A stretch of 64,000 nt of DNA from Prescottella agglutinans (GTDB taxonomy: Bacteria > Actinomycetota > Actinomycetes > Mycobacteriales > Mycobacteriaceae): contig NZ_RKLP01000005.1 of the NCBI RefSeq assembly GCF_004011865.1, forward strand, positions 1 to 64,000, in the 5' to 3' direction. How positions within the stretch are numbered: the stretch's first letter is position 1; each line of letters opens with the position of its first letter. The notes under the pieces are model-generated. The model was given only the letters and a program-made list of their open reading frames with translations. It was not told the origin of the DNA and did no database searches. Position numbers and translations under genes: made by a program. This document shows, piece by piece, positions 26,973 to 56,445 of the stretch.

Positions 26973-28535
26973 CTAGCGCTCGCCCCGCGGAACCGTTGTC
27001 ACCCGGACCGATCCGGTGTCGAGGTCCAGTCGCATGGCCCCCTCGAAGCCGTCCGAACCGCCGGAGCCGCCCAGGTCCGCGAGCACGCCCTCGGCGCTGC
27101 GGGCGGCGACCCGGCAGGCCCGTGCGGTGAACTGGTCGACCAGCGGGTGTGCCGCACGTTCGCGCCACCTCCGTACCGCACCGAGCGCCACCGCCCGCCC
27201 CTCCTCGATCGACGTGTCCGGCGTCAGCCCGAGCCGCTGGGCGACATCGATGCCGAATCCGCCCATCAGCCTCTGCAATTCGACCAGGTCGTCGGGCGAC
27301 AGGCCGGTCTCGGTGCCGCGGAGTCGGCCCAGCATCCGCAGTTCCTGGAATCCGTGCACGTCGGCCAGCAACCGCCGGACCTCACCGAGCAGCCGCGGCG
27401 TCTCCGACCCCGGATGCGCCTCGAGGACACGTTCGAGCGCGACGAGCGCCGAGTGCGTCTTGAGCTGGTCGGCGCGCTGCCCGAACTGGACGTCGATCAC
27501 CTGACGCAACTCGTCGAGCCCGCTGCGCGCCACCAACTCCGATGCGAGAGTGGGTGAATCCTGAACGCCCAGACGGATCAGCATGACCGCGAGCCGGATC
27601 CCGAACAGCCCGAATCGTTCCACCAACTGTCGGCGCACCGCGGTGTCCACCGGCAGCGGGACGTCCTCGCGCGCGAACCGGTCCGCCGACAGCATCGCCA
27701 ACTGCAGGTCTTCCGCCGGCACCGTGGCCAGCGCCTCGAACGCCGCGAACTCGCTCTGCCGCAAAGTCCGCGCGCCCAGCGCCAGCAGTCCGGCGACCGG
27801 CACGACGGCCTGGCACAGTCCGGTGAGCTCGAGTTCCGATGCGAACCGCGCCGCCATGTCCTTCGCGGACATCATCGCGTCGGCCCGGCCGGCACCCACC
27901 TCGTCGGCGCGCGAGACGACCCCGATCACCCCGAGCGGACCCGACTCGCCGCCCACGTGCGTGCCGATACGGCCGAGGAACTGGACATCCGACGCACCGA
28001 GGCTGCGCAGCAGATACACCACCGCGTCGGCGCCAGACACCGCGTTCTCCGGCGTCAGCATCTCGAACGTGCGCGCCGAGACGTCCTTCGACAGCGACGA
28101 CGTGCCGGGGGTGTCGATGATGGTCGTCTGCGCGAGCGCGGGGGCGGGCCACTCGACGTCCAACCGGTCGACCCGGTCCGCGGTGAGGTCGCCGAGGTCG
28201 AACGTGAGGCGTCCGGCGCGGCGCTGCACCGCGACGTTCACCGACCGATCGCCGTCGTGGACCGCGGTGACCGTGGGGGTGGCACCACTGCGGTACCAGG
28301 TTACGACGCGGGTGCACTCGGTCGCGTCCGTGGGCGCGATGTCCTGTCCCACGAACGCGTTGAGCAACGTCGACTTGCCGGCCTTGAGCGAGCCGGCCAG
28401 CGCGACCCGCAGCGGCTGCTCGAGCCGCGCCGCGCATTCCGCGAGTTGCGTTCGGGCCGAGACATTTCCCGCATACGCGTCACGCGCGGACGCGATCAGG
28501 GTCCGGGCGCGGTCCAGGGACGCCGGCGTCGTCAC
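26973..28535 (-). CDS. iniC: Dynamin-family GTPase, IniC-like (520 aa)
   Basis: This is a bacterial dynamin-like protein. G1 is GSLKAGKS (48-55), G2 lies around TDATECTRVV, G3 is DTPGTSSLSKD and G4 is SRADEVGAG. A mostly helical C-terminal half follows, without the two clear membrane helices seen in the partner. The start at 28535 is 4 bp from the IniA-like stop, so the pair is co-transcribed. M. tuberculosis IniA and IniC are encoded the same way and are induced by isoniazid and other wall inhibitors (established). The pair probably acts on inner-membrane remodelling or repair. Confidence 0.87.
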   Translation of the reverse strand: MTTPASLDRARTLIASARDAYAGNVSARTQLAECAARLEQPLRVALAGSLKAGKSTLLNAFVGQDIAPTDATECTRVVTWYRSGATPTVTAVHDGDRSVNVAVQRRAGRLTFDLGDLTADRVDRLDVEWPAPALAQTTIIDTPGTSSLSKDVSARTFEMLTPENAVSGADAVVYLLRSLGASDVQFLGRIGTHVGGESGPLGVIGVVSRADEVGAGRADAMMSAKDMAARFASELELTGLCQAVVPVAGLLALGARTLRQSEFAAFEALATVPAEDLQLAMLSADRFAREDVPLPVDTAVRRQLVERFGLFGIRLAVMLIRLGVQDSPTLASELVARSGLDELRQVIDVQFGQRADQLKTHSALVALERVLEAHPGSETPRLLGEVRRLLADVHGFQELRMLGRLRGTETGLSPDDLVELQRLMGGFGIDVAQRLGLTPDTSIEEGRAVALGAVRRWRERAAHPLVDQFTARACRVAARSAEGVLADLGGSGGSDGFEGAMRLDLDTGSVRVTTVPRGER

Positions 28536-28539
28536 GCCG

Positions 28540-30351
28540 TCACCTCCTCGCCCACAGCGGTTCGACCGGGAACAGCTGCGCGGCGTGCTCCTTCAGCCCG
28601 GCGAGGGCATCGAGCTGCCGCTCGACCTCGGCGGCGCGGCGCGCCCGTTCGGTCGACGCGACGGTGGCCGCCTCCTGCGCCGCCCGCAGCGAATCTGCGA
28701 GCGAACGCAGTGTCTGCTCGGCGATGGTCGTGAAGTGGTCGCGCAGCAACCGCTGGATCAGCCGCAGCCGGTCCTTCGATTCCTTGCCGACCTGGAAGCT
28801 GACGTCGTCGGTGAAGCGCCGGATGGCGACCTTGGCGTCGGCTCGACGCTTGACGACGCGCGCGTCCCGGTCGTCGCGGTACGCCTTGGTGCCCAGCAGG
28901 ACTCCCGCACCCACCGAGATCGGGTTGACCAGTGCCATCCCCATCAGGGTGGTGACCAGGCCGAACATCAGCACGCCGCCGTACGACCCGCGCATGCCGA
29001 CGAGCACCTTCTGGGTGATGCCGATCCGGCCGGACTCGAGATCGGCCAACTCCACGACCGGTTCGAGGACACCGTCCGTGTCGGCGACGTCGAGCTGCGG
29101 CAGTTCCACCGCGCCGGCGTCCGCGAAATGCTCCGCCACCACCTCCGCGAGCCACAGCGCACGGTCGTGCGCCCACACGAAGTTGTCGCCCACCGACTGC
29201 GCGATCTGCTGCTCGAGCCACTCCCCCAGCTCGGTCCACTCCTTGCCGGGATCACCCTCGTCGACGGCGCGTTCGGCCTCCCGGGTCACCTGGCGCAACC
29301 GGTCGCGCAGGTCGTGATCGATGTCGGACGCCAGGTCGGCGATGCCGTCGGCCAGGGTCTGCTGCCAGCGCGCGGTCTTCTTCTGCAGTTCCTCGGTGAC
29401 CGCCTTGGCCCGCTGCAACTCGGCCACCGCAACCGCACCCTTCTCCGGATCCCTCAGTGCGGCAAGCTCACTGGCGAGCGCCAGCTGGAGATGCTCGACG
29501 ACGGAGTGGACGTCCAGGGACACCGTCCGCCGGAGGCCGCCCCGCGCGTACTCGATCACCCGGGTGCGCAGGAAGTCGTACAGCGCGTCGAATCCGGATT
29601 CCTCGTGCAGGGCCCGGTCGTCGAGGCGCAGGGCGTGTGACCGCAGGATCGACGAGATCGGCAGCAGCGGGACGTCGATTCCGGCTCGGCGCAGGTGACC
29701 GCGATCCGCGTCGACGATCTGTCGCCAGTGCGGGTAGAGGTCGGTCTTGGTGATCAGGCACGCCGCCGCCGGACACAACACCGTCACCTGCCGGAGGAAC
29801 GCGACTTCCGGTTCGGTGAACTCCTGGCTCGCGTCGGACACGACCAACACCGCATCCGCCGCCGGCAGCAGTGCGAGAGTGGCTGCTGCATGCGGATTTC
29901 CGTGCCCTCCCACACCCGGCGTGTCGACGAACACGAGACCGTCCGCGAGCAGGGCGCTCGGCACGTTGACCTCGATCCGCAGCACCTCGCGCCCCTCGGC
30001 GCGCGGCGTCTTCGGCGTCACCGCCTCGAGTTCGTCGAGCGGCAGGTCCACCCGGAGCGGCTCACCGCCGGGCTCGGCGAGGACCAACTCCGCGAAGGCC
30101 CGCTCGGAGTTCTGCACCACGGTGGGAACGGCGGTGGTCTCGTCGTCGCCGACCGAGCACACCGCCAGGTTGAGCAGGGAATTGACGAACTGGCTCTTGC
30201 CCTGTTTGAGCTGGCCGACCACGACGACCCGGAACCGGGGATCGACCGTCCGGGTGCGGACCAGAGCCAGCCGTTCCACCAGATCGCCGCGGCCCGCCGA
30301 GGCGGCGATCGTCGTCGTTCGATCGAGCAGATCCGTCATCGCGTCGTTCAT
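28540..30351 (-). CDS. iniA: Dynamin-family GTPase with membrane paddle, IniA-like (603 aa)
   Basis: G1 is GQLKQGKS (46-53), G3 is DTPGVGGHGN and G4 is TKTD, with a long helical region rich in charged heptads after the GTPase domain. Two neighbouring hydrophobic stretches (SYGGVLMFGLVTTLMGMALV and NPISVGAGVLLGTKAY) form the membrane-inserting paddle expected of IniA. The ATG at 30351 gives a length close to the 640 residues of M. tuberculosis IniA; the frame upstream is only an extension through the intergenic hairpin. IniA is known to be a GTPase that drives membrane fission in vitro. A hairpin between iniB and iniA may lower its expression relative to iniB. Confidence 0.88.
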   Translation of the reverse strand: MNDAMTDLLDRTTTIAASAGRGDLVERLALVRTRTVDPRFRVVVVGQLKQGKSQFVNSLLNLAVCSVGDDETTAVPTVVQNSERAFAELVLAEPGGEPLRVDLPLDELEAVTPKTPRAEGREVLRIEVNVPSALLADGLVFVDTPGVGGHGNPHAAATLALLPAADAVLVVSDASQEFTEPEVAFLRQVTVLCPAAACLITKTDLYPHWRQIVDADRGHLRRAGIDVPLLPISSILRSHALRLDDRALHEESGFDALYDFLRTRVIEYARGGLRRTVSLDVHSVVEHLQLALASELAALRDPEKGAVAVAELQRAKAVTEELQKKTARWQQTLADGIADLASDIDHDLRDRLRQVTREAERAVDEGDPGKEWTELGEWLEQQIAQSVGDNFVWAHDRALWLAEVVAEHFADAGAVELPQLDVADTDGVLEPVVELADLESGRIGITQKVLVGMRGSYGGVLMFGLVTTLMGMALVNPISVGAGVLLGTKAYRDDRDARVVKRRADAKVAIRRFTDDVSFQVGKESKDRLRLIQRLLRDHFTTIAEQTLRSLADSLRAAQEAATVASTERARRAAEVERQLDALAGLKEHAAQLFPVEPLWARR

Positions 30352-30439
30352 GAGTCCCGCTGCCCCGCTTCTCTGTTCCGACCCGCGCCCGCATCCGCGT
30401 ACGCGCGCTGGCTGATCCGCCGCTCCGCTGGATACGAAT

Positions 30440-30475
30440 CGGGGCCCCGCTCGCATTAGCGCGTCCGGGGCCCCG
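30440..30475 (-). terminator. Hairpin between iniB-like and iniA-like genes
   Basis: CGGGGCCCCG occurs at 30440-30449 and again at 30466-30475. Each copy is self-complementary and they also pair with each other around a 16-nt loop. It begins about 25 nt after the iniB-like stop, and iniA starts about 90 nt further on. It may be a partial terminator or an mRNA-stabilising hairpin that sets different levels of the abundant IniB and the dynamins. Confidence 0.6.
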
Positions 30476-30499
30476 TTCGTTACAAGCTCCGCCGGGTCG

Positions 30500-33115
30500 T
30501 CACGGCAGCAGATCGTGTCCGAGATCCGGCTGGGTGGCGGCCGGGTCGAGGATGGACGAACCGACGTGTCCCAGGGCGTCGGCGACGCCGTCGGCGAACA
30601 GCCCCGCGTCCGAATGCGCCGAACCGAACGCGTCACCGTCGATCGAGGACCAGGCGTTTCCGCCCGCGAGACCACCCGTCAGCCCAGTGGTGAGGTCGGA
30701 GGTCGCATCGACTGCGCCCTGCCACGCCGACGTCAGACCGCTCGTGAGGTCGGCCGCGATGTCTCCGGTTCCGGCGACGCCGGTGCCGAGTCCGCCGGCG
30801 ACGTCGCCGCTCGACCCGAAGCCGCCGCCGAGGTCACCACCGATCCCGCCCTCGACACCGCCACCGAATCCGCCGTCCACCGAACCGGACGATCCGGCGC
30901 CGGCCTGCAGTCCGCCGGCTGCGGCCGTCGCGGCATCGACGAAACCGTTCAGCGCGCCGGTCAGGTCGGCACCGAGCTGCCCACCGAGGTCACCGGCCGA
31001 GCCGAGACCGCCGCCCAGCTGACCCCCGAGATCCCCCGTCGAGCCCAGCCCGCCGCCGGCGCCGAGCGCCGCGTCCAGGGCCGCACCGAGGTCGCCGCCG
31101 GCCGAGCCGCCCGCGCCGAGCAGGCCGCCGAGCGCACCGCCCAGCTCGGTGCCGAAGCCACCGTCACCGGCGAGCAGGCCGCCGAGGTCCAGCGAACCTC
31201 CGGACTCGAGGCCGCCCCCGAGGACGCCTCCGAGCGCCGAGCCCAGGTCGACGCCGGCCGAGCCGCCGACACCGAACGCGGCCTCGAGCAGGCCGCCGAG
31301 ATTCGCGTCGGCTCCCACCTCGACGCTGCCGGCGAGCGCGAGCGCGCTGTCGATCGCCGTGCCGAGCGTGGCGGTGAGGGCGCCGTCGACGTCGAGCGCT
31401 CCGCCGAGCGCCCCGCTGATCGCGGTGCCCAGATCGCCGTCGGCGAGGCTGCCCAGGTCGAGGCTGCCGCCGAGCCCGCCGGCCAGAGCCCCACCGAGAG
31501 CCGCCCCCAGCTCGGCTCCGATCGAGCCCCCCGCCGCGAGCGCGGACCCGAGGGCGCCGCTGAGCGCCGCCGTCAGATCGGCACCCACGTTGCCGCCCAA
31601 CTCCGCGCCGAGGCTACCGCCGACCTCGAGCGCCGATTCGAGGGCGCCGGTGAACGCAGCCGACAGGTCGCCGCCGGCTCCCAACACACCCGCGAGCGCC
31701 GCCTCGAGCGAACCGCCGAGCCCCCCGGCCGCCTCGACGGCGCCGTCGAGCACGCCACCGAACGCGGCGCCCAGCGCACCGCCGAGATCGCCGCCGACGC
31801 CGAACGCGCCCTCGAGGGCCGCGGTCAGGCCACCACCCGCCTGCAGCAGACCCCCCAGGTCGAGGCTGTTCACGCCCTCGAGAGCGGCACCCAGCGCGGC
31901 ACCGAGCTGGGTGGTGAGCGCCCCGTCGACACCGAGCGAGCCACCGATCAGGCTGCCGAGCGACGCGCCCAGGTCCAGCGCGGTGTCGATCTCGAGCAGG
32001 TTCGCGAGGTCGAGGGCGCCGCCGAGTTCGAGGGCGCCGCCCAGCGCGGCACCGAGATCGGCGCCGATGGACCCGCCGAGCGACAGCGCCGACTCGAGCA
32101 GCCCGCTCAGGCTGGTACCGATCTGGCCCAGAATGTCGGCGTCCAGTCCGCCTCCGAGGCTGCCGCCGAGCGACAGCGCGGACTCGAGCGCTCCGGTCAG
32201 TGCCGCGGTGAGATCCGCGCCGATCCCGAGGCCACCACCGAGCGCCGCGCCGAGCGAACCGCCCAACCCGAGCAGCCCCTCGAGACCGGCGCCGAGCCCC
32301 CCATCGAGCCCGGCGCCGGCCTCGATCGCCGCACCGAAGAGCGCACCCAGCGCGCCGCCGAGTTCGGCTCCCAGCTCGCCGCCGATGCCGAACGCGCTCT
32401 CCAGCGCAGCAGTCAATCCGCCGTCCACCGACAGCAGTCCATCCAGGTCGAGGCTGCTCACGCCGGCGAACGCGGCATTGAGCGCGGCACCGAGATCGGT
32501 CACGAGGGAGCCGTCGACGTCGAGCGCGCCGCCGATGGCCGCGGCGAGCGCCCCACCGAGATCCAGCGAACCACCGAGGTCGGTCAGGCTGCCGAGATCG
32601 AGGCCGCCGCCCAGCCCGACCGCGGCCTCGATCGCGCCGCCGATGGCCGCACCGAGTTGCGCGCCGATCGCGCCGCCGGCCGCGAGCGCCGCGCCCAGCG
32701 CGGCCGCCAGATCCCCACCGAAGTCGAAGCCGCCACCGAGGTCGAGACCCCCGCCCAGCCCACCGCCCACGGCGGCACCGAGTCCCAGCCCCGCACCGGC
32801 GCCGAGCCCGGCACTGCCTCCGAGTCCCAGACCGCCGCCGAGACCCAGACCGCCACCCAGGCCACCGGCGGCGGCTCCGCCGACCGACCCCGCCGCTCCG
32901 GCACCGGCCGCGAGGATCGCACCCAGATCGCCCGCCGCGGGTCCGAACAGCCCGGATTCGGCGACCATCGGCGCCACCGCGACGATGTCGGCGTGGCACA
33001 CACCGTCGAGTCCGGCCGCACTGAGCGCCGCCTGCGGATTCGCGCAGTACGCCGCGGCCGCGTCCTCGTCGCGGAGAAGCCGGAGGATGAAGTCGAGAAC
33101 TGCGTTGCTGGCCAT
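30500..33115 (-). CDS. iniB: IniB-like giant Gly/Ala-rich repeat protein (871 aa)
   Basis: The ATG at 33115 (MASNAVLDFILRLLRDEDAA) follows AGGAG. The first 60 residues form the IniB-type N-terminal domain (YCANPQAALSAAGLDGVCHA). The remaining 800 residues are low-complexity Gly/Ala/Leu/Asp/Ser in a short period such as GGSLGAxLGAAL. A longer repeat starts at residues about 199, 396 and 576 (VDGSLVTDLG, VDGALTTQLG, VDGALTATLG), each continuing with SLDLxGLL, GGLTAALExAFG and a long LGxxLGxAL run. The C-terminal 60 residues lose the repeat. It is nearly twice as long as I recall M. tuberculosis IniB to be. It is first in the iniB-iniA-iniC unit; its function is unknown even in mycobacteria. Confidence 0.85.
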   Translation of the reverse strand: MASNAVLDFILRLLRDEDAAAAYCANPQAALSAAGLDGVCHADIVAVAPMVAESGLFGPAAGDLGAILAAGAGAAGSVGGAAAGGLGGGLGLGGGLGLGGSAGLGAGAGLGLGAAVGGGLGGGLDLGGGFDFGGDLAAALGAALAAGGAIGAQLGAAIGGAIEAAVGLGGGLDLGSLTDLGGSLDLGGALAAAIGGALDVDGSLVTDLGAALNAAFAGVSSLDLDGLLSVDGGLTAALESAFGIGGELGAELGGALGALFGAAIEAGAGLDGGLGAGLEGLLGLGGSLGAALGGGLGIGADLTAALTGALESALSLGGSLGGGLDADILGQIGTSLSGLLESALSLGGSIGADLGAALGGALELGGALDLANLLEIDTALDLGASLGSLIGGSLGVDGALTTQLGAALGAALEGVNSLDLGGLLQAGGGLTAALEGAFGVGGDLGGALGAAFGGVLDGAVEAAGGLGGSLEAALAGVLGAGGDLSAAFTGALESALEVGGSLGAELGGNVGADLTAALSGALGSALAAGGSIGAELGAALGGALAGGLGGSLDLGSLADGDLGTAISGALGGALDVDGALTATLGTAIDSALALAGSVEVGADANLGGLLEAAFGVGGSAGVDLGSALGGVLGGGLESGGSLDLGGLLAGDGGFGTELGGALGGLLGAGGSAGGDLGAALDAALGAGGGLGSTGDLGGQLGGGLGSAGDLGGQLGADLTGALNGFVDAATAAAGGLQAGAGSSGSVDGGFGGGVEGGIGGDLGGGFGSSGDVAGGLGTGVAGTGDIAADLTSGLTSAWQGAVDATSDLTTGLTGGLAGGNAWSSIDGDAFGSAHSDAGLFADGVADALGHVGSSILDPAATQPDLGHDLLP

Positions 33116-33224
33116 GGGAACGCTCCTGACAGTCTGGAGGCCGGCTGCCGCAAGATCCGACCGGGACACTGCGGCGAGATTGGTTTCCACGCTACGAATC
33201 CGGGACGTGCACGGTAACGGGGCG

Positions 33225-33294
33225 GATCCCCCCGAGCACCGACAGGGGGATTCTCGCCTCCCTCCATAGGGGATCGGGCCGGATTAGGGGGATC
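33225..33294. promoter_or_regulatory. Cluster of four G-run motifs in the iniB divergent promoter
   Basis: The 295-bp region between iniB and the Hsp70-like gene holds four copies of GGGG(G)AT(C/T): GATCCCCCC on the + strand at 33225-33233 (reverse), AGGGGGATT at 33244-33252, AGGGGATC at 33268-33275 and AGGGGGATC at 33286-33294. The last runs into ACCCCC and is nearly a palindrome. They lie 110-180 bp upstream of iniB and 117-186 bp upstream of the Hsp70-like gene. They are candidates for binding by the LuxR-type regulator encoded next door. Confidence 0.5.
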
Positions 33295-33410
33295 ACCCCC
33301 AAACCCGCACCGCTCGTCACCCGTTCCCGTAACGCACGACGACGACACACCGACAATCGCCATACCACCGGCGGTCACGCAAACCCGCCCAGAACGGACG
33401 GGAGAAGGGT

Positions 33411-35192
33411 ATGACCGCTGGACTCGGAATTGCTGTCGGAACCGCCAATTCGCGCACCGCGTCCTTATCGGAGGCCGGATCGGAAGTCGCCGAACCGGCA
33501 CTCGTCACCACGTCCCGCCCGTCGGTTCTGCACGTCGCGGCCGACGGATCCGTCACGTTCCCCGATCCGCCCACCGACCCCGCCGGCCTCCCCGTGGCCG
33601 GGTTCGTCGAACGCGTCGGCGATCCGGTGGGCCTGCTCGACGACAACGGCCACGTCCATCGGGGTGAGGACCTGTTCGCCGCCGCAGCGGCCCGACTGAT
33701 CGACGCCGTCGGGAGCACCGGCGCCGCTGCCGTCACCCACCCGACCGCATGGAACACGTACACCGTCCACGCCCTCGAATCCGCGCTCGCTCGCGCGGGG
33801 ATCGCGGCGGCGCGCGTCGTGCCCGAGGCCACCGCCTGCGTACGTTGGCTCGAATCGTCGCGTGATCTGCAGGGCGACGGTGTCGTGGTGGTCTACGACC
33901 TCGGTGCGTCCGCGCTCGACGTCTCCGTGGTCCGCACCGGCACCGAACCGTCGATCCTCGGCAAGCCGATCCGGTCCGAGGATTTCGGCGGCACGCACTT
34001 CGACCACCTGGTCACCCGGTACGTGCTCGACACGGTCTCCGACAAGACCGACGATCTCGATCCCTTCGACAGCGCCACGACTGCCGCGCTCGGGGATCTG
34101 CGCCGGAACTGCGCGGCGGCCAAGGAGTCGCTGTCCACGGACACCGAAACCGTCATCCCCGTCGCCCTGCCCGGGTACGTCGCGGACGTACGCCTGGTCC
34201 GGTCCGAACTCGAGGATCTGATCCGGCCGGCACTCACCGGTTCGCTCGAACTGGTCCGAGAAGCACTGCGGTCGGCCGAGATCGAGGTCTCCGACGTCGG
34301 CTGCGTGCTGTTGACGGGCGGTGGCGGAGCGATCCCGCTGGTGGCCGAACTCGTCTCGTCCGAACTGGGCCTCGCGGTGGTGGCGGCAGCGGACCCGGCG
34401 CTCACCGCCGCGCTGGGAGCGGCCCACCTCGCCGTCGACGAACCGGCGTCCACCGACGCGACGACGATCTTCCCCGACTACGAGCACGTCCCCGACGACA
34501 CGGTCGTCGCACCGGTCGTCCCCAGCTTCCCGTCCCGTATGCGCTCGCCTCGGAGCGAGTCCCCGACCCGGCGCCGAATCGCGATCGTCCTGTCCGCCGC
34601 GGCCGCCGTCGGGATCCTCACCGCGGGCGGTCTGTCCATCGGGACGGCATCGAAGAACGAACCGGCACAGTCGAGTTCATCCGTCCCCGGAACGACCACG
34701 GCACCATCCGGCGGTGTCACGACGCCCGGCGCGGCGATCGGCGGTGCGGTACCGGGCGAGACCGTCACCGTCGGCCACGTCGGAACGGGCGGGACCGCGA
34801 CGGCTGCGGACGGCGGACTCGTCCGGACCGCCGATGCCGGACGCGTCACCACCGCGCCGGGTCCGACTGCGGGCACCCCGGGTACGCCGGGTGCGGCACC
34901 GAGCGTCCCGGAAGGTGCCCCCGCAGCGCCCTCCGCTCCCACCCCCGAAGGCCAGGCGCCCGGTGGCGCCGTGGTGGCGCCGCCCGCATACATCCCGCCC
35001 GCACCCGTGGGCGGCGTGCCGAATCCGGCACCCAGCGGACCCTCCCCCGCCGACGTCGGCGAGGGAATCGGCAAGGCAGCCACCGGTGTGGGCAAGGGAC
35101 TCGGGGCAGCGGTGACCGGTATCGGGACCGGCGTCGGGAACATCGTCGGGGCGGTCGTCGACCCGGTGACCGGACTGCTGATCGGAAAGTAG
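33411..35192 (+). CDS. Membrane-anchored Hsp70/actin-fold ATPase-like protein with Pro/Gly/Thr-rich exterior (593 aa)
   Basis: The N-terminal 340 residues form an Hsp70/actin-like domain: MTAGLGIAVGTANSRTA (phosphate-1), VYDLGASALDVSVVRTG (phosphate-2, 162-175) and CVLLTGGGGAIPL (adenosine loop, 298-310). There is no Hsp70 substrate-binding domain. One helix follows (AIVLSAAAAVGILTAGGLSI, about 391-410), then about 180 residues of Pro/Gly/Thr/Ala-rich sequence and a final Gly-rich GKAATGVGKGLGAAVTGIGT. The RBS is GGGAGAAGG. It is divergent from iniB and ends 3 bp before the LuxR gene. A paralogue of the same layout lies at 53277. Its role is unknown; signalling or scaffolding between cytoplasm and wall is a guess. 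Confidence 0.8.
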   Translation: MTAGLGIAVGTANSRTASLSEAGSEVAEPALVTTSRPSVLHVAADGSVTFPDPPTDPAGLPVAGFVERVGDPVGLLDDNGHVHRGEDLFAAAAARLIDAVGSTGAAAVTHPTAWNTYTVHALESALARAGIAAARVVPEATACVRWLESSRDLQGDGVVVVYDLGASALDVSVVRTGTEPSILGKPIRSEDFGGTHFDHLVTRYVLDTVSDKTDDLDPFDSATTAALGDLRRNCAAAKESLSTDTETVIPVALPGYVADVRLVRSELEDLIRPALTGSLELVREALRSAEIEVSDVGCVLLTGGGGAIPLVAELVSSELGLAVVAAADPALTAALGAAHLAVDEPASTDATTIFPDYEHVPDDTVVAPVVPSFPSRMRSPRSESPTRRRIAIVLSAAAAVGILTAGGLSIGTASKNEPAQSSSSVPGTTTAPSGGVTTPGAAIGGAVPGETVTVGHVGTGGTATAADGGLVRTADAGRVTTAPGPTAGTPGTPGAAPSVPEGAPAAPSAPTPEGQAPGGAVVAPPAYIPPAPVGGVPNPAPSGPSPADVGEGIGKAATGVGKGLGAAVTGIGTGVGNIVGAVVDPVTGLLIGK

Positions 35193-35195
35193 TCG

Positions 35196-37727
35196 ATGCG
35201 GACCCTAGGAGCAGGCGCGTCGGCAGCGCCGTTCGGCGACTCGCCGTCGGACCCCGCACTCGCCGGGGTGCCCGGCGGCCGGGACCTCGCCGAGGCGCTC
35301 ACCTCACGCGCGGACGGTTGCGTCCTGGTTCGCGGCAACTCCGGCAGCGGGAAGTCTCTCCTGCTCGCTTCCGCGCGAAACATGTTGAGCACACGGGCAG
35401 ATCGCGTGCACGCCACCGTCGATGCCGCGCTGCTCGACTCGGGACCACTGGTTCTCGACGGCGCGCACGCCCTGCCCGACGCCGAACTCGTCGCCCTGCG
35501 TCGACTCGTGCAACGGGGCAACCGCACGGTGGTCGTGGCCACCGAACCCCGACCACACCGCACGCCGCTGTGCGACCTCGTGACGGGAATGCAGGCACGC
35601 GGGCCGGTGATCGACCTCCGCCCCCTGACCCCGAGCGAGGTCGACGAACGAGCGCGGCGGCGCGGAATCGCGCTGGCGCCGGACCTCACCCGCTCGCTCC
35701 ACGAGTCGACCGCGGGCGTGCTCGCCTCCATCGACGCCGGACTCGACGCGGCCGAGTCCTCGGACTGCGACGAGAACGCGATCCACGCCGCGGTGGCGTC
35801 GCATCTGCACGACGCGCTGCGACATCTCGACACGGACATGCTCGCGGCACTGTCGCTGTGCGCGTTCGGATTCGGCATGGATTCGACGGACCTGGCCACC
35901 GTCCTGCAACTGACGCCGGAGGCCGGACTGGACCTCACGGACCGGGTGCGCGCGAGTGCGTTCGTGCCCCGCGCGAACACCGCCGCGCCCGCGGTGCGGC
36001 CACTGGTCGGCGCGGCGCTGGGCGTCACACGACTGCGGGAACTCCAGGCGGGTGTGCTGACGGCGCGACTCGACGCCGGGACGCTCGACGCACAGGCCGC
36101 GCTGATGCTGGCCGAGGCCGGTCTCGAGGACCGGCGGCTCGCCCAGTTCCTGTGCACGTGCGCGGAATCGGAGAACCCCGTGCGCGCTGCCGAACTCCTG
36201 GCGGCCGCGGTCCGGGCCGGAGCCGACGCCGACTGCGTCGCCCTGCGCCGGTCCGAGGCGAGCGCGCTGGCCGGCGACCTGGACACCGCCGAAGCGCTCA
36301 CCGACTCGATGATCGACCGCGCCGCCGCCCTCGAACCGGTGGAGTTGGCCTCCGCGGTGCGCATCTCGGCCGGTATCGCGGCGTACCGAGGAGCGGTCGA
36401 GCGCAGCGCCGATCTGTACGAGTGGCTCGGTCCCGAGCGGGTCGGGGCGGACGCCGCGATCGCCGCGACGGTCCTGCTCGCCGCCGGGCGCCCCGAGTCG
36501 GCCGCCGGACACCTCGCAGCGGGACGACAGGGACCGCCGACGTCCGGGGCGGCGGGTGTCGCGCTGCTCGCCGAAGGACTCAGCCAGTCGATCGCGGATT
36601 CCGGTGCGCTCGCGATGAACTCGCTCACCCGTGCGATGTCGCTGCTGAACACCAGCGCGCACGCACGCCTGCTGCCGGACAGCGCGACCGCGGTCACCGC
36701 ACTACTGTGTCTGCACTCCGGCGAACTCGCGCACGCGGATTCGGTGCTTCGGCGAGCACTGGAGTCCGATCCGCCGGCGAGCATCGCCCGCACCCGGCAC
36801 CTCGTGCTGTCGGCGTGGACCGCGATGATCGGGGGTGATCTCATCGCCGCCGCCTCGATCGTCGACGCGCTCCCCACCGACAGTCCGCTGCACGCCCGCG
36901 AGGCCCTGTTCGTCCACGGGTTGCGCGTGGGGCTCGCCCGCCGCAACGGGGACGTCGGTGCGCTGCAACGTGAGTGGTCCGTGGCCCAACCGGTGGTCGC
37001 CGGCTACTCGGTGGACCTGTTCAGCCTGTTGCCGCTCGGGGAACTCTGGCTGGCCGCGGTGCGCGTCGGGGACGTCCCCCGGATCGCGCACCTGATCGCG
37101 CAGGCGCAGGAACTGCTGAGCCGGCTCGGTGAACCGGCGCTGTGGGGTGCGGCGCTGCACTGGTACGGCGTGCAGGCCGCGATCCTCGGCGACAACCCGG
37201 CGCAGCTGCTGCCGCACGCTCGGGCGCTCGCCGCGGCCGCCGCGGTGAGCGCCTACTCCGCCGGGCTCGCCGCCGCCGGGCGCGTCTGGTTGCGGGTGCT
37301 CCGGGAGGAGGCGGACGCGTCGGAGGTGGAGTCCGCGGCACGGGAACTCGAGCGCATCGGACTTCCCTGGGACGGCGCACGCCTGGCCGGCGAAGCCGCG
37401 CTTCGCGTCTCGGACACCCGCGGCGCCACGACGCTGCTCCAGGTCGCTCGCTCGCTGCGGGACACGACGGCGCCGCAACCCACCGGCGAGTCCGCCGCAC
37501 CCGATGCGAGCGGGGGCACACTCACCGAGCGCGAGGCGGACGTGGCCGGTCTGCTGCTCCTCGGGCTCACCCACCGCGAGATCGGCGCCCGCCTGTACAT
37601 CGCGCCGAAGACCGTCGAGCACCACGTGGCGCGGATCCGACGACGGCTCGGCGCCAACTCCCGATCGGAGTTGCTGTCGATGCTGCGCGCGCTCGGCTAC
37701 GGAGGCGCCGAATCGTCCGCCTCGTGA
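35196..37727 (+). CDS. iniR: Large ATP-binding LuxR-family regulator, IniR-like (843 aa)
   Basis: Walker A is GNSGSGKS (47-54), with a degenerate Walker B LVLDGAHALPDAE. A long helical TPR-like region (about 250-750) leads to a LuxR HTH at the C-terminus (LTEREADVAGLLLLGLTHRE, IGARLYIAPKTVEHHVARIR). This is the STAND/LAL type. In M. tuberculosis Rv0339c, as I recall named IniR and reported to sense trehalose and control iniBAC, has the same build and lies between iniB and Rv0338c, as here. The gene follows the Hsp70-like gene by 3 bp, so they form one operon divergent from iniB. Confidence 0.85.
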   Translation: MRTLGAGASAAPFGDSPSDPALAGVPGGRDLAEALTSRADGCVLVRGNSGSGKSLLLASARNMLSTRADRVHATVDAALLDSGPLVLDGAHALPDAELVALRRLVQRGNRTVVVATEPRPHRTPLCDLVTGMQARGPVIDLRPLTPSEVDERARRRGIALAPDLTRSLHESTAGVLASIDAGLDAAESSDCDENAIHAAVASHLHDALRHLDTDMLAALSLCAFGFGMDSTDLATVLQLTPEAGLDLTDRVRASAFVPRANTAAPAVRPLVGAALGVTRLRELQAGVLTARLDAGTLDAQAALMLAEAGLEDRRLAQFLCTCAESENPVRAAELLAAAVRAGADADCVALRRSEASALAGDLDTAEALTDSMIDRAAALEPVELASAVRISAGIAAYRGAVERSADLYEWLGPERVGADAAIAATVLLAAGRPESAAGHLAAGRQGPPTSGAAGVALLAEGLSQSIADSGALAMNSLTRAMSLLNTSAHARLLPDSATAVTALLCLHSGELAHADSVLRRALESDPPASIARTRHLVLSAWTAMIGGDLIAAASIVDALPTDSPLHAREALFVHGLRVGLARRNGDVGALQREWSVAQPVVAGYSVDLFSLLPLGELWLAAVRVGDVPRIAHLIAQAQELLSRLGEPALWGAALHWYGVQAAILGDNPAQLLPHARALAAAAAVSAYSAGLAAAGRVWLRVLREEADASEVESAARELERIGLPWDGARLAGEAALRVSDTRGATTLLQVARSLRDTTAPQPTGESAAPDASGGTLTEREADVAGLLLLGLTHREIGARLYIAPKTVEHHVARIRRRLGANSRSELLSMLRALGYGGAESSAS

Positions 37728-37809: not shown

Positions 37810-39198
37810 ATGCGTACCTCGCTGGCGCCGCGCGCCGCAGTGCTGTCGTTCGCCCGCCGCGCCGCTGTCGTCGGATCGTCGACGCTGCTGCTCGCCGCAC
37901 CGCTCACCGCGTCCGCGCACGCCGAGCCGACCGACCCGGTCGGGTCGTCCGGGGCAGGCGTCACGCAGCTCTCCGCGGACGAGCTGCCCGCCGATCTGGT
38001 CGAGGCGATCACCCGGGATCTGCAGATCAGCCCGCAGGAGTACCTCGACCGTGCCGCACGCGCGCAGGAACTCGGCTCGTACGCGGCGGACTTCAGGGCC
38101 GAACGTCCCGAGGAGTTCGCCGGCGCCTGGATGGGTCTCGACGGTCACCCCGTCGTCGCCGTGACGACGACGGAGGCGGCACAGGACGCGGCCCGCGACG
38201 GGTACCGCACCCACATGGCACCGGTCTCCCTCGAGGGACTCGAGCAGTCCGTCGCCGACTTCAACCGTTGGGTGTCGGACCTGCCGCGCGAGATCGCATC
38301 GCAGGTCGGGTCCGCCTCGATCGACGTCCTGAACAACCAGATCGTCGTCGACATCGCCAACAGCCCCGCCGGACGCGCACTCGACCTGCCCACGCAGATC
38401 GCGAACGTCAAGGTCCAGCTCTCGAATGTCGGGCCGGCCCCGGTGGAACGGACGCCGATGGGCGGCGACACCTACGTGACGTCGGCCAAGCCCCTGGGCG
38501 ACGCGCCCCGCGACGAAATCGGAATCTGCTCCTTCGGATTCAACGGCGTCGACCGGAACGGCAATGCCGTGAACATCAGTGCGGGTCACTGCGACCCCGC
38601 GCAGGGTGCGAACGCGGGCGTGTACCTGCCGAACCGCGAGAACCTCGCCGACAGCCTCGAGGTGGGCAAGTTCGCCCGCTCCGAGATCGGCGGCAACGAC
38701 ACCATCGACTACTCGTTGATCCGCCTCAACGACGCGGGCCTGCGCGTCGGCCTCGACCGCCCGGTGATCCGCGGCGCCGGCGGCAGCACCCTCACCGTCA
38801 CCGGCACCGCCGTCCCCGTCGTCGGAGCCCCGATCTGCAAGTCCGGGCAGACGTCGTCGTTCACCTGCGGTGTCGTGTCCGCCGACCGGGTCGAGGCACA
38901 GCTCATGACCTTCGACGGCGCCAGCCACACGGTGCGCGGATTCGCCGGGACCGCTTGCACTCTCGCGGGAGACAGCGGCGGCGCGATCGTCACGGGCACG
39001 CTGGCTCTCGGCATCACCAGCGGGTCCAACAGCAGCGACGCACCCAGTTGCGCCGAGGCCAACATGGTTCTCGCGTTCGACGGTGGAACCTCCAACCTGG
39101 GCATTCCGATCCGCACCATCCTGGGCGCCGCCGACGCGTCCTCCGGCGGGGGTCTGGGCGCCGGTCTTTCCGTGCGCACCGGCGCCGCCGGCGCCTGA
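37810..39198 (+). CDS. Secreted S1-family serine protease 1 (462 aa)
   Basis: The signal peptide (MRTSLAPRAAVLSFARRAAV to about residue 38, AHAEP) leads to a prodomain of about 190 residues, then a chymotrypsin-fold domain of the alpha-lytic/streptogrisin type. The triad is His260 in NISAGHC, Asp300 in TIDYSLI and Ser389 in GDSGGAIV. Cys pairs CSFG...GHC and CKSG...TC...ACTLAGDS fit the family disulfides. It is one of two tandem paralogues and follows the LuxR gene by 82 bp. The prodomain keeps the ISPQEYLDRAARAQE motif seen in both copies. It probably acts outside the cell or in the wall. Confidence 0.88.
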   Translation: MRTSLAPRAAVLSFARRAAVVGSSTLLLAAPLTASAHAEPTDPVGSSGAGVTQLSADELPADLVEAITRDLQISPQEYLDRAARAQELGSYAADFRAERPEEFAGAWMGLDGHPVVAVTTTEAAQDAARDGYRTHMAPVSLEGLEQSVADFNRWVSDLPREIASQVGSASIDVLNNQIVVDIANSPAGRALDLPTQIANVKVQLSNVGPAPVERTPMGGDTYVTSAKPLGDAPRDEIGICSFGFNGVDRNGNAVNISAGHCDPAQGANAGVYLPNRENLADSLEVGKFARSEIGGNDTIDYSLIRLNDAGLRVGLDRPVIRGAGGSTLTVTGTAVPVVGAPICKSGQTSSFTCGVVSADRVEAQLMTFDGASHTVRGFAGTACTLAGDSGGAIVTGTLALGITSGSNSSDAPSCAEANMVLAFDGGTSNLGIPIRTILGAADASSGGGLGAGLSVRTGAAGA

Positions 39199-39350
39199 CG
39201 ATTCGTTCACGCGGATTTACGCATAACGGGTGGGCTTCGGGGTACCGAACCCATATAGTCAAATGCGACTCGGGGCACCCGCGTAGCCGGGTGCTCCTCT
39301 CTGCGCGCCTCGGGGTCCATGGGCGCAGGGCGGACAATAGAAAGGCCCTC

Positions 39351-40685
39351 ATGCGAAGCTCGCTCGCACGTCGTGCCGCGGTGTTCGGCTCTACCGCGCT
39401 CCTGTTCCTCGGCCCTCTGACAGCCGTCGCACAGGCCGAGCCCGCCGAATCGCCCGCAGTGTCCGAGTCGGGTGTCTCCGACCAGGCGGCGCACCTGCCG
39501 ATCGAGCTCGTCGAGGCGTTGCAACGGGACCTGAAGCTCTCGCCGGACCAGTACCTGGAACGGTCGGAGCTGGGCCAGAAGCTGGCGGAGTTCGCGGAGA
39601 TCGCGCGCGTCCAGTTCCCCGACGCGTTCGCCGGGGCGTGGATCGACCAGTCCGGGACGCCGATCGTCGGGCTCGCCGGGCACGACCGCGACGCCGCCCG
39701 CGCCGCCGTCGAGCAGGCCGGGTTCACGAGCAAGGACGTCGAGCGGAGCCAGAACCAACTCGAGTCCGCCCGCACCGCGCTGACCGACTGGATCGGCACC
39801 CTGCCCCCGGAGATCGGCAAGCTCGTTCGCGGTGTCGCCATCGACATCACCACCAACAACGTGATCCTGCGGGCCGACGACACCGCCGGTGACCTGTTCG
39901 ACCTGCTGCCGCCGTTCCTCCAGGGGGCCGCGCGCCTCGTGCTCGGCCCCGCCCTCGCGCCGTTGCAGCCCGTTGCCCAGGGTCCCGAGTCCGCCTACTA
40001 CGCGGCCGACGCCTTCCTCGGCGGCGACCCGTACGCCGCAGTCGGTGGAGGTATGGGCCTGCGCTGCTCGCTCGGGTTCAACGCGACCGACGGCAACGGT
40101 GCACCGGTCAACATCAGCGCCGGCCACTGCGACCCCAACCGGACGTTCGCCGGCACCGAGAACGCGTCCAAGGCGTACGCCATGGTGGGCGAGGTGTCCG
40201 GACCGATGATCGGCACCTTCGAGAAGACCAGCCTCGACGGGTACGACTACTCGATCATCCGGCCGACGTCCGACTCGGCCCCGCGCTTCGCGAACAACGG
40301 CATCCGGGTTCCGGGCGCCGCACCGCTCGGCATCACCGGCACCGCCGACCCCGTCGTCGGCGCACCGGTGTGCAAGGCCGGCAACACCTCGGGCTTCAAC
40401 TGCGGCGTCGTGACCGCCACCAACCAGACCGTTCCCGTCGGACAGCGGGTGCTCACCGACGGATTCGCCACCAACCTGTGCGCACTGCAGGGCGACAGCG
40501 GCGGCACCATCGTCACCGGCACGCTCGCCCTCGGCATCTCGAGCGCATCGAACGTCGGCGACTTCGGCATGTGCCAGGTCGCGGACTTCGTCGGATCCGT
40601 CACGGGCAGCACCCCGGAACTGTTCGCCACCCCGATCAACACGATCCTGCGGCAGAACCCCGGACTGGCGCTCAGGACGTCCTGA
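39351..40685 (+). CDS. Secreted S1-family serine protease 2 (444 aa)
   Basis: The ATG at 39351 (MRSSLARRAAVFGSTALLFL) follows GAAAGG; the in-frame region upstream is only read-through of the first protease gene's other frame. The signal is cleaved near AQAEP. The prodomain holds LSPDQYLERSELGQKLAE. The triad is His259 in NISAGHC, Asp299 in GYDYSII and Ser383 in GDSGGTIV. Compared with protease 1, the prodomain has a longer helical hairpin around residues 170-230. A perfect 19-bp terminator follows. Gene duplication is the likely origin. Confidence 0.88.
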   Translation: MRSSLARRAAVFGSTALLFLGPLTAVAQAEPAESPAVSESGVSDQAAHLPIELVEALQRDLKLSPDQYLERSELGQKLAEFAEIARVQFPDAFAGAWIDQSGTPIVGLAGHDRDAARAAVEQAGFTSKDVERSQNQLESARTALTDWIGTLPPEIGKLVRGVAIDITTNNVILRADDTAGDLFDLLPPFLQGAARLVLGPALAPLQPVAQGPESAYYAADAFLGGDPYAAVGGGMGLRCSLGFNATDGNGAPVNISAGHCDPNRTFAGTENASKAYAMVGEVSGPMIGTFEKTSLDGYDYSIIRPTSDSAPRFANNGIRVPGAAPLGITGTADPVVGAPVCKAGNTSGFNCGVVTATNQTVPVGQRVLTDGFATNLCALQGDSGGTIVTGTLALGISSASNVGDFGMCQVADFVGSVTGSTPELFATPINTILRQNPGLALRTS

Positions 40686-53276: not shown

Positions 53277-54431
53277 TCACAGCTTCGGAAGCGGTATCCC
53301 GGGGATGACCGGCATCGGCGGCAGCTGAACCGGCGGCAGCGCGGGCAGGACGGGCAGTTGGATGTCCAGGCCCGGGAACAACGGGGCCGGCGCCGGAGCG
53401 GTCGTGCGGGGCGGCTCCGGTCGGTATCCGGGGTCCGCGGCCGGTTGTTGCGCAGCCTCGGTGGTGGTGACCGGGGCCGACGACGGCGGCGGGGGTGGCG
53501 GGGTGGTCGTCCGCGACGACGTCTGCCCGCTCGACGAGAAGGTCGAGGTCGGCGTGTCCGTCGAGGCCCCCGCCTCCGATCCGAAAACCGTTCTGCCGTA
53601 TCCGAGCCCGAAACCGATGGCCGCGATGAGGACCAGGGCGGCACCCGCCAGGCCGGCACCGTTCACCTGTCGACGGGAGACCGCCCGGTGGGCCGCGCGC
53701 GTCGACCGGCGCGGCGCCGCCACCGTCACCGTTCCCGCGAGGAGCGCCGCGCCGCCGGCGACGACGAACTCGGGATGCTCCGGCATCACGATCGGGACGG
53801 CCGACCGCTCGGCGAGCACCGACTGCACCTCGGGGATGTGGGCTCCGCCTCCCAACAGCACCACGGCCTCGGGGAGCAGATCGACCTGCGAGACCAGGTC
53901 GCCGATCAGTTCGATCGATTCCTCGATCACCGGAAGGACGACGCGCCCGAATGTTTCACGTGGTGTTCGTTCGAGTCGATCACAGCGCAGGATCTGGCTG
54001 CGCTCGGATGCCGCGACCGAGCCGGTGTACCTGTCCACCACGCTGACGGTCAGACCGGTGCTCCCCAGGTCGTACAGCACGATCGTCCGCACACCCGCGA
54101 GCCGGCCGTCGCGGTCGAGCCGCTCGAGCACCGCGGTGAGTTCGGGGATCAACCGGAAGCCCGTGATGCCGGCGCCCCGCAGCGCGGCATCGAGCGCGGC
54201 GGCCTGCGCTTCGTCACCGTAGGCGACACTCACGCCGACCGGTGTTCTCGACGACGTGAGTTCGGCCAGCGCCGCACCGACCGCATCCGCCGCGGCCTCT
54301 TCCGGGATCCGACCCGTGACGGGGACCGTCCGACGCTCGAACGTGGCCGGCGTCCCCGCAGGACCGGTTGCCCGGGAGCGCACCAGGCGCACGAATCCGG
54401 CCCCCACCGAAACCCCTAGAACCCCACCCAT
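53277..54431 (-). CDS. Second membrane-anchored Hsp70-like protein with Pro-rich tail (384 aa)
   Basis: This is a shortened Hsp70/actin-fold domain of about 235 residues: MGGVLGVSVGAGFVRLV, VLYDLGSTGLTVSVVDRYTG (118-137) and AVVLLGGGAHIPEVQSVLAE (189-208). One helix follows (LAGAALVLIAAIGFGLGYG, about 261-279), and then an outside part first rich in Ser/Thr and later almost only Pro/Leu/Ile/Ala (PGLDIQLPVLPALPPVQLPP). It has the same architecture as the protein at 33411, with lower similarity. It lies between a YibE/F gene and a tyrosine phosphatase. ATP hydrolysis is uncertain because the phosphate-1 loop lacks the usual DxGT. Confidence 0.75.
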   Translation of the reverse strand: MGGVLGVSVGAGFVRLVRSRATGPAGTPATFERRTVPVTGRIPEEAAADAVGAALAELTSSRTPVGVSVAYGDEAQAAALDAALRGAGITGFRLIPELTAVLERLDRDGRLAGVRTIVLYDLGSTGLTVSVVDRYTGSVAASERSQILRCDRLERTPRETFGRVVLPVIEESIELIGDLVSQVDLLPEAVVLLGGGAHIPEVQSVLAERSAVPIVMPEHPEFVVAGGAALLAGTVTVAAPRRSTRAAHRAVSRRQVNGAGLAGAALVLIAAIGFGLGYGRTVFGSEAGASTDTPTSTFSSSGQTSSRTTTPPPPPPSSAPVTTTEAAQQPAADPGYRPEPPRTTAPAPAPLFPGLDIQLPVLPALPPVQLPPMPVIPGIPLPKL

Positions 54432-54525: not shown

Positions 54526-55041
54526 ATGCAGTTGCTGTTCGTATGCACCGGCAACATCTGCCGTTCCCCCACCGCCGAGCGCCTGACCACCGCCTGGACA
54601 GCCCGCAACGGCACCGTCGACCTCACCGCGTCCAGCGCCGGCACCCGGGCCGTCGTGGGCTCGGGCCTCGAACCCAACGCGGCGCAGGTCCTTTCGACAC
54701 TCGGCGGGGATCCCGACGGGTTCGCGGCGCGCCAGCTGACGCCCGCGATCGCGGGTGGCGCGGACCTGGTCCTCACGATGACCGAGTCCCATCGCGACAG
54801 GGTGCTCCGGATCGCTCCGCGCCAGCTCAAACGAACATTCACGCTGCTCGAGGCCGCGCACCTGGCCTCGGTGACCGGTCCGGCCACCGTCGCGGAACTG
54901 GCGGCCGCACGCGGCACCGTCCCCCGCCCGGCAAACGCCGACGTCCCCGACCCGATCGGGCAGAGCGCGACCGTGTTCGGGGACGTCGGCGGTGTGATCG
55001 ACCGGGCCCTCCTGGAGCTACTTGCTCGCCTGCGTTGCTAG
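54526..55041 (+). CDS. Low-molecular-weight protein tyrosine phosphatase (171 aa)
   Basis: The catalytic loop is C7-TGNIC-R13-S (CX5RS), right at the N-terminus, and the general acid Asp lies in VPDPIGQSA near residue 146. It is close to the Wzb/YwlE/Etp type, and slightly longer than usual because of an insertion around residues 95-120. It dephosphorylates the Tyr cluster of BY-kinases in exopolysaccharide control. The partner kinase gene converges on it and overlaps by 24 bp at the 3' ends (55018-55041). Confidence 0.9.
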   Translation: MQLLFVCTGNICRSPTAERLTTAWTARNGTVDLTASSAGTRAVVGSGLEPNAAQVLSTLGGDPDGFAARQLTPAIAGGADLVLTMTESHRDRVLRIAPRQLKRTFTLLEAAHLASVTGPATVAELAAARGTVPRPANADVPDPIGQSATVFGDVGGVIDRALLELLARLRC

Positions 55042-56445
55042 CGGCGCGGGGTCGACCGGCCGGGCGGACTCGTCCGACTTCTGCACCGGTGCGTCGGCGT
55101 CGTAGTAGTACTTGTACTCGTACCCGCCCTTGCCCTTGGACGGCGTCATCGTGAGGATCGTGCCGAGCACCGTCGCCCCGACGCTGCGCAGATTGCCGAT
55201 CGCGCGCGACACCTGGTCACGCTTCGTCTTGCCGTGCCTCACCACGACCAGTGAACCGTCGACCTTCGCCGCCAGCACCGCCGCGTCCGTCACCGGCAAC
55301 AGCGGCGACGCGTCGATGACGACGAAGTCGAACTTCGACCGCAGGTCGGCGATCAGCTTCTCCGCGTGCGTCGACCCCAGCAGCTCGCTCGGGTTCGGCG
55401 GCAGCGGACCCGACGCCAGCACCGAGACGTTGGCGAGCGCGGTCGACTGCAGGACGTCGTCCAGGTCGGCCTGTCCCGCGAGGACGGTGCTCATGCCGAC
55501 CGACCCGATCAGGTCCAGGTACTTCGCCACGCGGGGGCGACGCAGATCGGCGTCGACCAGGCACACCGAGTAGCCTGCCTCGGCGATCGCCAGGGACAGG
55601 TTGATCGCCGTGGTCGTCTTGCCCTCGCCCGGAAGCGAACTGGTGATCGAGATGACCCGCGGCGGGTTGTCGACCTCGAGGAACTGCAGGTTCGTCCGCA
55701 GCTCCCGGAACGCCTCGGCGCTGCCCGAGTACCCGTCGTGGAAAGCGATGGCCGCCTTCTGCTCGCGCTCCTTGTCGTAGGGCACGGTGCCCACCAGGCC
55801 CACGCCGGCCAACTCGTCGAGCACCTCGCGACTCTTGACCGTGTTGTCGAGGCGGTCACGGAGGATCGCCAGGGCAATGCCGCCCAGGAGGCCGACGGCG
55901 AACCCGAGCAGCAGGTTGCGCTTGGTCTTGGGGCTCACCGGGTCCGTGGGCGTCGCGGCGTGTTGCTCGACGACCACCCGGGCCGTCGGAGGCACGCCGG
56001 GCTCGAGGGTTTCGAGTTCTTCCGCCATGATCACGAATTCGTCGGCAAGGGCGTTCGCCAGGTCGCGAGCGCGCTCAGGGGACGCATCGGTCAGCTTCAG
56101 GTCGATCAGGACCGTGTCGGGTGTCGACGTCGCCTTGACCTCTTTGGACAGCCCCGCGGCGGTCATGCCCGACACCTGCACCTTGTCGAGCGTGCGCTGC
56201 GCGAGCGTCGTACCGGTCAAAAGCTTGGTATACGACGCGACGCGCTGTTGGGAGAACAGGTTGCCCTGGTACACCTCGTTGACCGACGCCCCCGACGACG
56301 TGGAGACGAAAAGCCTGGCCGAAGCCTGGTACATCGGCGTAGCGACGAGTGATGCGCCCAGCGCGACAAGCACCCCGACGAGCGTTGCCACCGCAATGAT
56401 CTTCCACCGCGTCTGCACGACCCGTAGGTAGTCCTGTACTTCCAT
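55018..56445 (-). CDS. Polysaccharide co-polymerase/BY-kinase (Wzz-CpsD fusion type, 475 aa)
   Basis: Two membrane helices (about 16-35 and 177-196) flank a Wzz-like outside domain (PMYQASARLFVSTSSGAS). The cytoplasmic kinase domain has Walker A LPGEGKTTTA (271-280), Walker A' CLVDADLRRP and Walker B FVVIDASPLL, and the C-terminal Tyr cluster YEYKYYY (442-448) for autophosphorylation. It controls chain length and export of a polysaccharide. It lies 62 bp downstream of the NRPS gene on the same strand, so it may share its transcript, and its 3' end overlaps the matching phosphatase. Confidence 0.9.
   Translation of the reverse strand: MEVQDYLRVVQTRWKIIAVATLVGVLVALGASLVATPMYQASARLFVSTSSGASVNEVYQGNLFSQQRVASYTKLLTGTTLAQRTLDKVQVSGMTAAGLSKEVKATSTPDTVLIDLKLTDASPERARDLANALADEFVIMAEELETLEPGVPPTARVVVEQHAATPTDPVSPKTKRNLLLGFAVGLLGGIALAILRDRLDNTVKSREVLDELAGVGLVGTVPYDKEREQKAAIAFHDGYSGSAEAFRELRTNLQFLEVDNPPRVISITSSLPGEGKTTTAINLSLAIAEAGYSVCLVDADLRRPRVAKYLDLIGSVGMSTVLAGQADLDDVLQSTALANVSVLASGPLPPNPSELLGSTHAEKLIADLRSKFDFVVIDASPLLPVTDAAVLAAKVDGSLVVVRHGKTKRDQVSRAIGNLRSVGATVLGTILTMTPSKGKGGYEYKYYYDADAPVQKSDESARPVDPAPLATQASK

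Follow-up and report, generated by a model that had tools for sequence, protein, structure and literature searches.

The window analysed here, a stretch of 64,000 nucleotides from Prescottella agglutinans (contig NZ_RKLP01000005.1, positions 1 to 64,000 of the forward strand), contains an Ini-type locus in which a gene for a degenerate Hsp70-like protein, here called hspL, stands directly in front of the regulator gene iniR. Across several families of the order and many genera, hspL mostly sits beside iniR. Judged by sequence comparison, the case for a new, hspL-bearing variant of the known Ini system is strong; its mechanism is unproven.

Five genes make up the locus, at the places that an earlier note on this DNA had given them: iniC, iniA and iniB run leftward, and hspL and iniR rightward. 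The Ini identity proposed there holds, with an IniA like that of structure 6j72, an IniB N-terminal domain over its cut-off and an IniR homologue at 594 bits. The five-gene order, the near-contact of hspL and iniR, the loss of active-site residues from HspL and the presence of TAGGGG repeats between the two arms can all be read in the DNA.

Conservation of hspL beside iniR

The association was surveyed in 61 genomes of the window's family, with strong matches set at 315 bits or more for IniR and 600 bits or more for IniA. Strong IniR occurs in 30 of the 61 and strong IniA in the same 30, all of which have hspL (29 at 225 bits or more, and one at 138 bits in a copy adjoining iniR). Among the other 31 genomes, hspL reaches 225 bits in two, G014 and G031, the former being a 66% complete genome with the match at a contig edge. 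In a comparison of 30 family loci (29 fetched, plus the window), all 29 that could be evaluated have hspL immediately 5′ of iniR, with iniB diverging from hspL; the remaining one, L061, has iniR at a contig start and is outside the counts. Also outside the counts are L001, with broken hspL and iniC frames, and L075, which has another gene order and is not among the 30. Thresholds on overlap (L071, for the 36 family copies aligned below) and on length (L073 and L074, for the 53 gaps measured) removed three further loci, all with hspL 5′ of iniR.

A similar picture emerges outside the family. The order survey found IniR at an E-value of 1e-40 or better in 60 of 200 genomes and 18 of 61 genera, and its extension to the class found matches at 1e-60 in 19 of 246 genomes. 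Of 42 extra-family loci, 20 were fetched, of which 19 carry both iniA and iniC; hspL is immediately 5′ of iniR in 18. In L152, one of the two exceptions, hspL and iniB face each other with iniR on the far side of iniC; in L166, iniR has no companion gene of the locus within 16 kb. Mycobacterial-type genomes (108 genomes of the genus with IniR over the curated cut-off, taken as Mycobacterium) carry such an IniR in 73 cases, with hspL directly 5′ of iniR in at least 52 of the 73 loci, three at contig edges and 18 without it there; this count sets all 73 IniR places against 73 of at least about 150 HspL places, and the misses were checked by fetching 16. One of the 18, L178, is a locus split between contigs in which hspL is present. 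Contact between the two genes is close: in 51 of the 53 loci measured, out of 57 given, no more than 30 nt separate the hspL stop from the nearest start in the iniR frame, and a 4-nt overlap is common; the window has a gap of 3 nt. The earlier note had taken the Hsp70-like gene for a fixed member of the locus and had named absence from most relatives as the observation that would count against this; synteny and co-occurrence point the other way.

Several further copies were met in the course of the survey. A more degenerate HspL copy lies directly 3′ of iniR in 11 cases (L048, L054, L060, L064, L067, L129, L130 and others). HspL paralogues of mycobacterial type whose fetched stretches contain no Ini gene occur at L147, L112, L113, L170-L177 and L179-L181, the one at L147 adjoining an apolipoprotein N-acyltransferase gene. 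The closest named relative of hspL that was found belongs to Prescottella defluvii, with 83% identity in the best segment; in the record of that species (L001), hspL and iniC are broken into several frames, perhaps through record errors.

The HspL protein

The hspL gene (33411-35192, plus strand) encodes 593 residues comprising a degenerate nucleotide-binding domain (NBD), one predicted transmembrane helix and a tail modelled with low confidence. Pfam HSP70 matches at 94 bits, covering profile positions 135-372 of 599 and ending at residue 341, and the structure model contains a complete Hsp70 NBD fold. No substrate-binding domain was matched by Pfam, and the model shows no confidently folded part beyond about residue 345. 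HspL is not a DnaK by the equivalog model TIGR02350 (80.5 bits, cut-off 822.55), nor does it reach the cut-offs of the actin-like families MreB_Mbl (22.5 bits against 27) and FtsA (21 bits against 175.85). Relative to DnaK and other Hsp70s, it lacks the substrate-binding domain and catalytic residues and has gained a predicted helix and a tail.

Residue loss is extensive in the family copies beside iniR. D8 is kept in none of 35 and K70 in none of 36, both being kept in DnaK (two short DnaK pieces show gaps in this census); T199 is kept in 3 of 36, E171 in 22 and D194 in 35. Each of the 36 copies retains between one and three of these five catalytic residues, and in the window only E171 and D194 remain. 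In the adenosine motif, the paired glycines persist (36 and 35 of 36), and the arginine, R345, is lost in all 36. Among 19 extra-family copies, one has all five catalytic residues and 18 have three or fewer (one of these, L153, being readable at one site only); D8 persists in 16 of these 19 and R345 in 14, with 4 gaps, and other residues are lost. The earlier note's description of the protein as an ATPase is therefore not supported in so far as an active enzyme was meant, D8 and K70 having gone from every readable family copy beside iniR, and the active ATPase was rejected on this census.

The single helix and the tail rich in proline and glycine that the note had described are borne out, the tail being rich in alanine as well. 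The helix is predicted at residues 386-405 (34566-34625, plus strand), a hydropathy peak occurs in 36 of 36 family copies beside iniR, and lysine and arginine are richer on its N-terminal side in all 36; the predicted topology has the NBD in the cytoplasm and the tail outside it. By the hydropathy threshold, 11 of 19 extra-family copies have no helix, though their hspL lies 5′ of iniR, and the constant part of the system is for this reason the degenerate NBD adjoining iniR. Three 11-residue repeats of glycine and hydrophobic residues were located in the tail (residues 550-582, at 35058-35156, plus strand), which has a lag-11 hydrophobic autocorrelation of 0.47 against a 95% shuffle level of 0.41. 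Kinship with the repeats of IniB, whose hydrophobic period is 4/14/18/22, was considered and set aside since the main lags differ, both fitting helical spacing.

A second compact Hsp70-like protein of 384 residues is encoded at 53277-54431 on the minus strand, with the start motif LGVSVGAG, a Pfam HSP70 score of 29 bits, one hydrophobic stretch and a tail rich in proline and threonine. It lies near a polysaccharide-type Wzz/AAA_31 gene (55018-56445) and is likely to be another pseudo-Hsp70 membrane protein.

The shared divergent region and the Ini genes

The two arms had been described as running from the same promoter; what lies between them is rather a shared divergent region of 295 bp (33116-33410), an arrangement of iniB and hspL that is the same in 38 loci measured. 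Within it, two TAGGGG direct repeats (33267-33290, plus strand), starting 18 bp apart at 33267 and 33285, form a candidate operator. Read towards hspL, at least one copy is found in all 38 divergent loci and at least two in 34; dinucleotide shuffles yield two or more in a mean of 0.125 loci and never in more than 1. Extra-family divergent regions have at least one copy in 17 of 18 (shuffles 3.2, maximum 8). The spacing is mostly 18 bp, with 15 in addition to 17-18 in mycobacterial-type genomes. All 15 mycobacterial-type loci that have iniB* and no hspL beside iniR carry a TAGGGG pair in the iniR-iniB* interval, joined in 14 by a further pair, spaced by 8 bp, before iniB; no copy was found in 600 bases at L127 and L075, which are without iniB*. 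A genome-wide enrichment of the exact pair TAGGGG-N12-TAGGGG was not found in 26 genomes (17 with the locus, 9 without), where 21 hits compare with 67 for the backwards control. Ini promoters account for 12 of these 21; among the 17 genomes with the locus, 5 lack the exact pair at that place. The 5.4-Mb genome of the window contains a single exact pair, at 33267, against 2 hits for the control. We propose the repeats as a candidate IniR operator because M. tuberculosis IniR was reported from ChIP-seq to bind directly in front of iniBAC (PMC5760070).

Such an 8-bp-spaced pair precedes the second IniB-type gene in 23 of the 24 mycobacterial-type loci examined (L046, L047, L116-L125, L128-L131, L133-L135 and L143-L146), L126 having one copy, and is possibly a second operator.

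The iniR-like gene (35196-37727, plus strand) starts immediately after hspL and encodes the 843-residue regulator that had been anticipated, with an N-terminal Walker A motif (GNSGSGKS) and a C-terminal helix-turn-helix (HTH) of LuxR type (GerE, residues 775-829, 9e-14). Its match to the IniR model NF038181 covers positions 16-824 of 827 and remains under the 750-bit equivalog cut-off, which is exceeded in only 2 of the 61 family genomes. The protein is accordingly taken for a homologue of IniR in the corresponding locus and not for an NCBI equivalog. The IniR homologues at L073 and L074 align with the model only from roughly position 333 onwards and may lack the N-terminal ATPase part.

On the minus strand, the iniA-like gene (28540-30351) encodes 603 residues with Dynamin_N at 7.6e-16, and the solved M. 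smegmatis IniA 6j72 matches it at 1.6e-189 over residues 6-595 of 604 given. The iniC-like gene (26973-28535) has a GTG start and encodes 520 residues with Dynamin_N at 2.2e-11 and weak structure matches to a bacterial dynamin-like protein and to IniA. The motifs listed in the earlier note are largely in place: GSLKAGKS and DTPG in IniC, and GQLKQGKS and DTPG in IniA. The fourth, TKTD, occurs in IniA only, IniC having SRAD instead. The iniB-like gene (30500-33115, best start 33115) encodes 871 residues, a helical N-terminal domain followed by Gly/Ala/Leu repeats; IniB_NTERM (NF038175) matches at 74 bits, over the cut-off of 40. The structure model is confident for about residues 1-70 only, too weak beyond that for a repeat fold to be drawn from it, and this attempt was dropped. 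The length of iniB varies hugely between loci, a stop-to-stop frame of 4445 codons with the IniB N-terminal domain being found at L114:3619-16953. The 148-nt gap between iniB and iniA folds into a GC-rich hairpin (30434-30480, minus strand) with a z-score of -3.2, none of 200 shuffles being equally stable; this is a possible attenuator or processing site, and it could set the ratio of iniB to iniA. Downstream of iniR, on the plus strand, two exported-looking proteins with GDSGG motifs are encoded at 37810-39198 and about 39207-40685; a Pfam search of the first found no match.

Compared with the iniBAC-iniR locus described for M. tuberculosis, M. marinum and M. smegmatis (PMC5760070), the window agrees in the divergence of iniR from iniB-iniA-iniC, in IniA homology and in IniB_NTERM. 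It differs in the hspL gene that separates iniR from the shared region, in its single iniB where the described locus has iniB* plus iniB, and in an IniR under the equivalog cut-off. The same source gives one sentence, as a species difference and without study, to an Hsp70-related gene touching iniR in M. smegmatis. The contact with iniR is alike; the present gene is mainly upstream of iniR, extends over several families of the order and lacks catalytic residues. That sentence was all that a literature search on hspL returned, with no study of the gene, most subscription journals lying outside the search.

Possible roles of HspL

The activator MalT of E. coli is restrained by MalK, a membrane-bound effector component, and its operator consists of G-rich direct repeats. 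The Ini locus is comparable in its G-rich repeats, in a membrane partner (proposed here for HspL) and in the middle region of IniR, which has been likened to MalT. MalK is an ABC ATPase and HspL an Hsp70 relative. On this analogy and on the coupling of hspL to iniR, we tentatively suggest, at somewhat less than even probability, that membrane-anchored degenerate HspL holds IniR inactive and that envelope damage releases IniR and switches on iniBAC. HspL would bind IniR at the membrane and keep the activator inactive; its tail, or its membrane context, would report damage to the envelope; IniR thus freed would bind the TAGGGG repeats and drive both arms, including the dynamin operon. The published description of IniR (PMC5760070), comprising an AAA+-type domain, a region like MalT domain III and a LuxR HTH, is to be read beside this proposal, as is the induction without drug by overexpressed IniR reported there.

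Several observations weigh against a restraint of IniR by HspL. Induction by overexpressed IniR fits titration of a restraint and needs none. The repeats need not be those of IniR, since other regulators act on this promoter in mycobacteria, HpoR among them (PMC13413693, in whose available text dnaK or Hsp70 is not mentioned). The tail of HspL is poorly conserved, which is odd for a specific sensor, and a sensor resting on the tail alone is weakened by this and by the helix-free extra-family copies. Orphan hspL paralogues exist in mycobacteria. Two genomes without iniR, L168 and L169, keep an hspL placed by the tree with the Ini type; their fetched stretches contain no Ini gene, iniA and iniC not having been sought in the rest of these genomes, and in L168 the neighbour of hspL is an Fe-S reductase gene, one that in L130 comes after the Ini locus. 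Moreover, iniR lacks an adjoining hspL in 17 of the 73 mycobacterial-type loci (in all 16 of these that were fetched); the iniR-iniB*-iniB order reported in PMC5760070 leads us to infer that these are the tubercle-like genomes. In L127, L128, L131 and L178, hspL is found in the iniBAC arm, behind iniC.

These displaced copies bear on a different role, somewhat unlikely on present evidence, in which HspL is a membrane platform for the assembly of IniA and IniC (and IniB), its adjacency to iniR giving only shared expression. Seven of the 16 fetched mycobacterial-type loci without hspL beside iniR have it beside iniC, which was judged only where the stretch continued past iniC, most of the others ending there; in L121 and L123 no hspL was found within about 2 kb past iniC. 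Five of the seven group with Ini-type copies in the tree, and L127 and L128 with the orphan paralogues. HspL tree distances (29 loci) follow those of IniC (partial r 0.43) over those of IniR (0.21), a comparison that proved not decisive between the two roles. Dynamin genes of a second type are also found with Hsp70: among 20 such IniA-like genes, 17 have an IniC-like partner in view and 9 an Hsp70 in the fetched stretch, and the dynamin cluster of the Gordonia plasmid CP094667 likewise has one, the cases with an Hsp70 being L097-L105 and L045. These loci differ from the Ini type in having no match to IniR (at 1e-20) or to the IniB N-terminal domain (at 1e-4), and their Hsp70s, which may work differently, keep those catalytic residues that are readable, 7 of 14 being trimmed before D8 and K70. 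Against a platform stands the coupling of the main hspL copy to iniR, and not to iniA or iniC, in nearly all sampled loci.

The earlier note suggested that HspL might be a sensor or a scaffold, and either is plausible. The link with iniR and the helix-free extra-family copies lead us to lean towards a regulator partner; the copies behind iniC, the Hsp70s near other dynamin genes and the two genomes with an Ini-type copy but no iniR temper that leaning. A dual role, in which HspL docks the dynamins and restrains IniR, would fit most of these observations.

It is rather improbable that HspL serves as a nucleotide-binding switch that binds ATP without hydrolysis and reports the ATP level to IniR. 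The retained paired glycines and D194 would suit such a switch, as would the link between wall inhibitors, an ATP burst and iniBAC described in PMC6104191; the loss of R345, K70 and D8 means that binding itself may be gone, and IniR has a Walker A motif of its own. It is very improbable that HspL is still an active ATPase of the DnaK type that acts as a chaperone for secreted or wall proteins: the predicted NBD fold is complete and L152 and L075, loci of different gene order, keep all five catalytic residues, but no substrate-binding domain is matched beyond residue 341 and catalytic residues are lost in the family copies beside iniR. That hspL is a chance or passenger neighbour, for which the orphan mycobacterial-type paralogues might speak, was rejected on synteny and co-occurrence across the sampled order and retains next to no probability.

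The iniBAC operon, familiar from the response of tuberculosis bacteria to isoniazid, is strongly induced by wall-acting tuberculosis drugs, and PMC5760070 leaves open what IniR senses and with which partners. PMC6715688 describes IniA as a dynamin that carries out membrane fission. By touching iniR in most sampled relatives, and by being missing or moved in the inferred tubercle-like genomes, hspL becomes a concrete candidate for the IniR partner. More doubtfully, the dead, membrane-anchored Hsp70 might be the missing receptor of IniR in a five-gene envelope-damage switch spanning the order, of which the tuberculosis type, the subject of most work so far, would be a reduced form with the receptor gene moved or dropped. 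If true, a partnership of HspL with IniR would put a dead Hsp70 to use in signalling and connect the Hsp70 fold with bacterial dynamins, with the TAGGGG repeats as a directly testable candidate operator. The occurrence of the module in families beyond that of the window suggests a response to general membrane or envelope damage.

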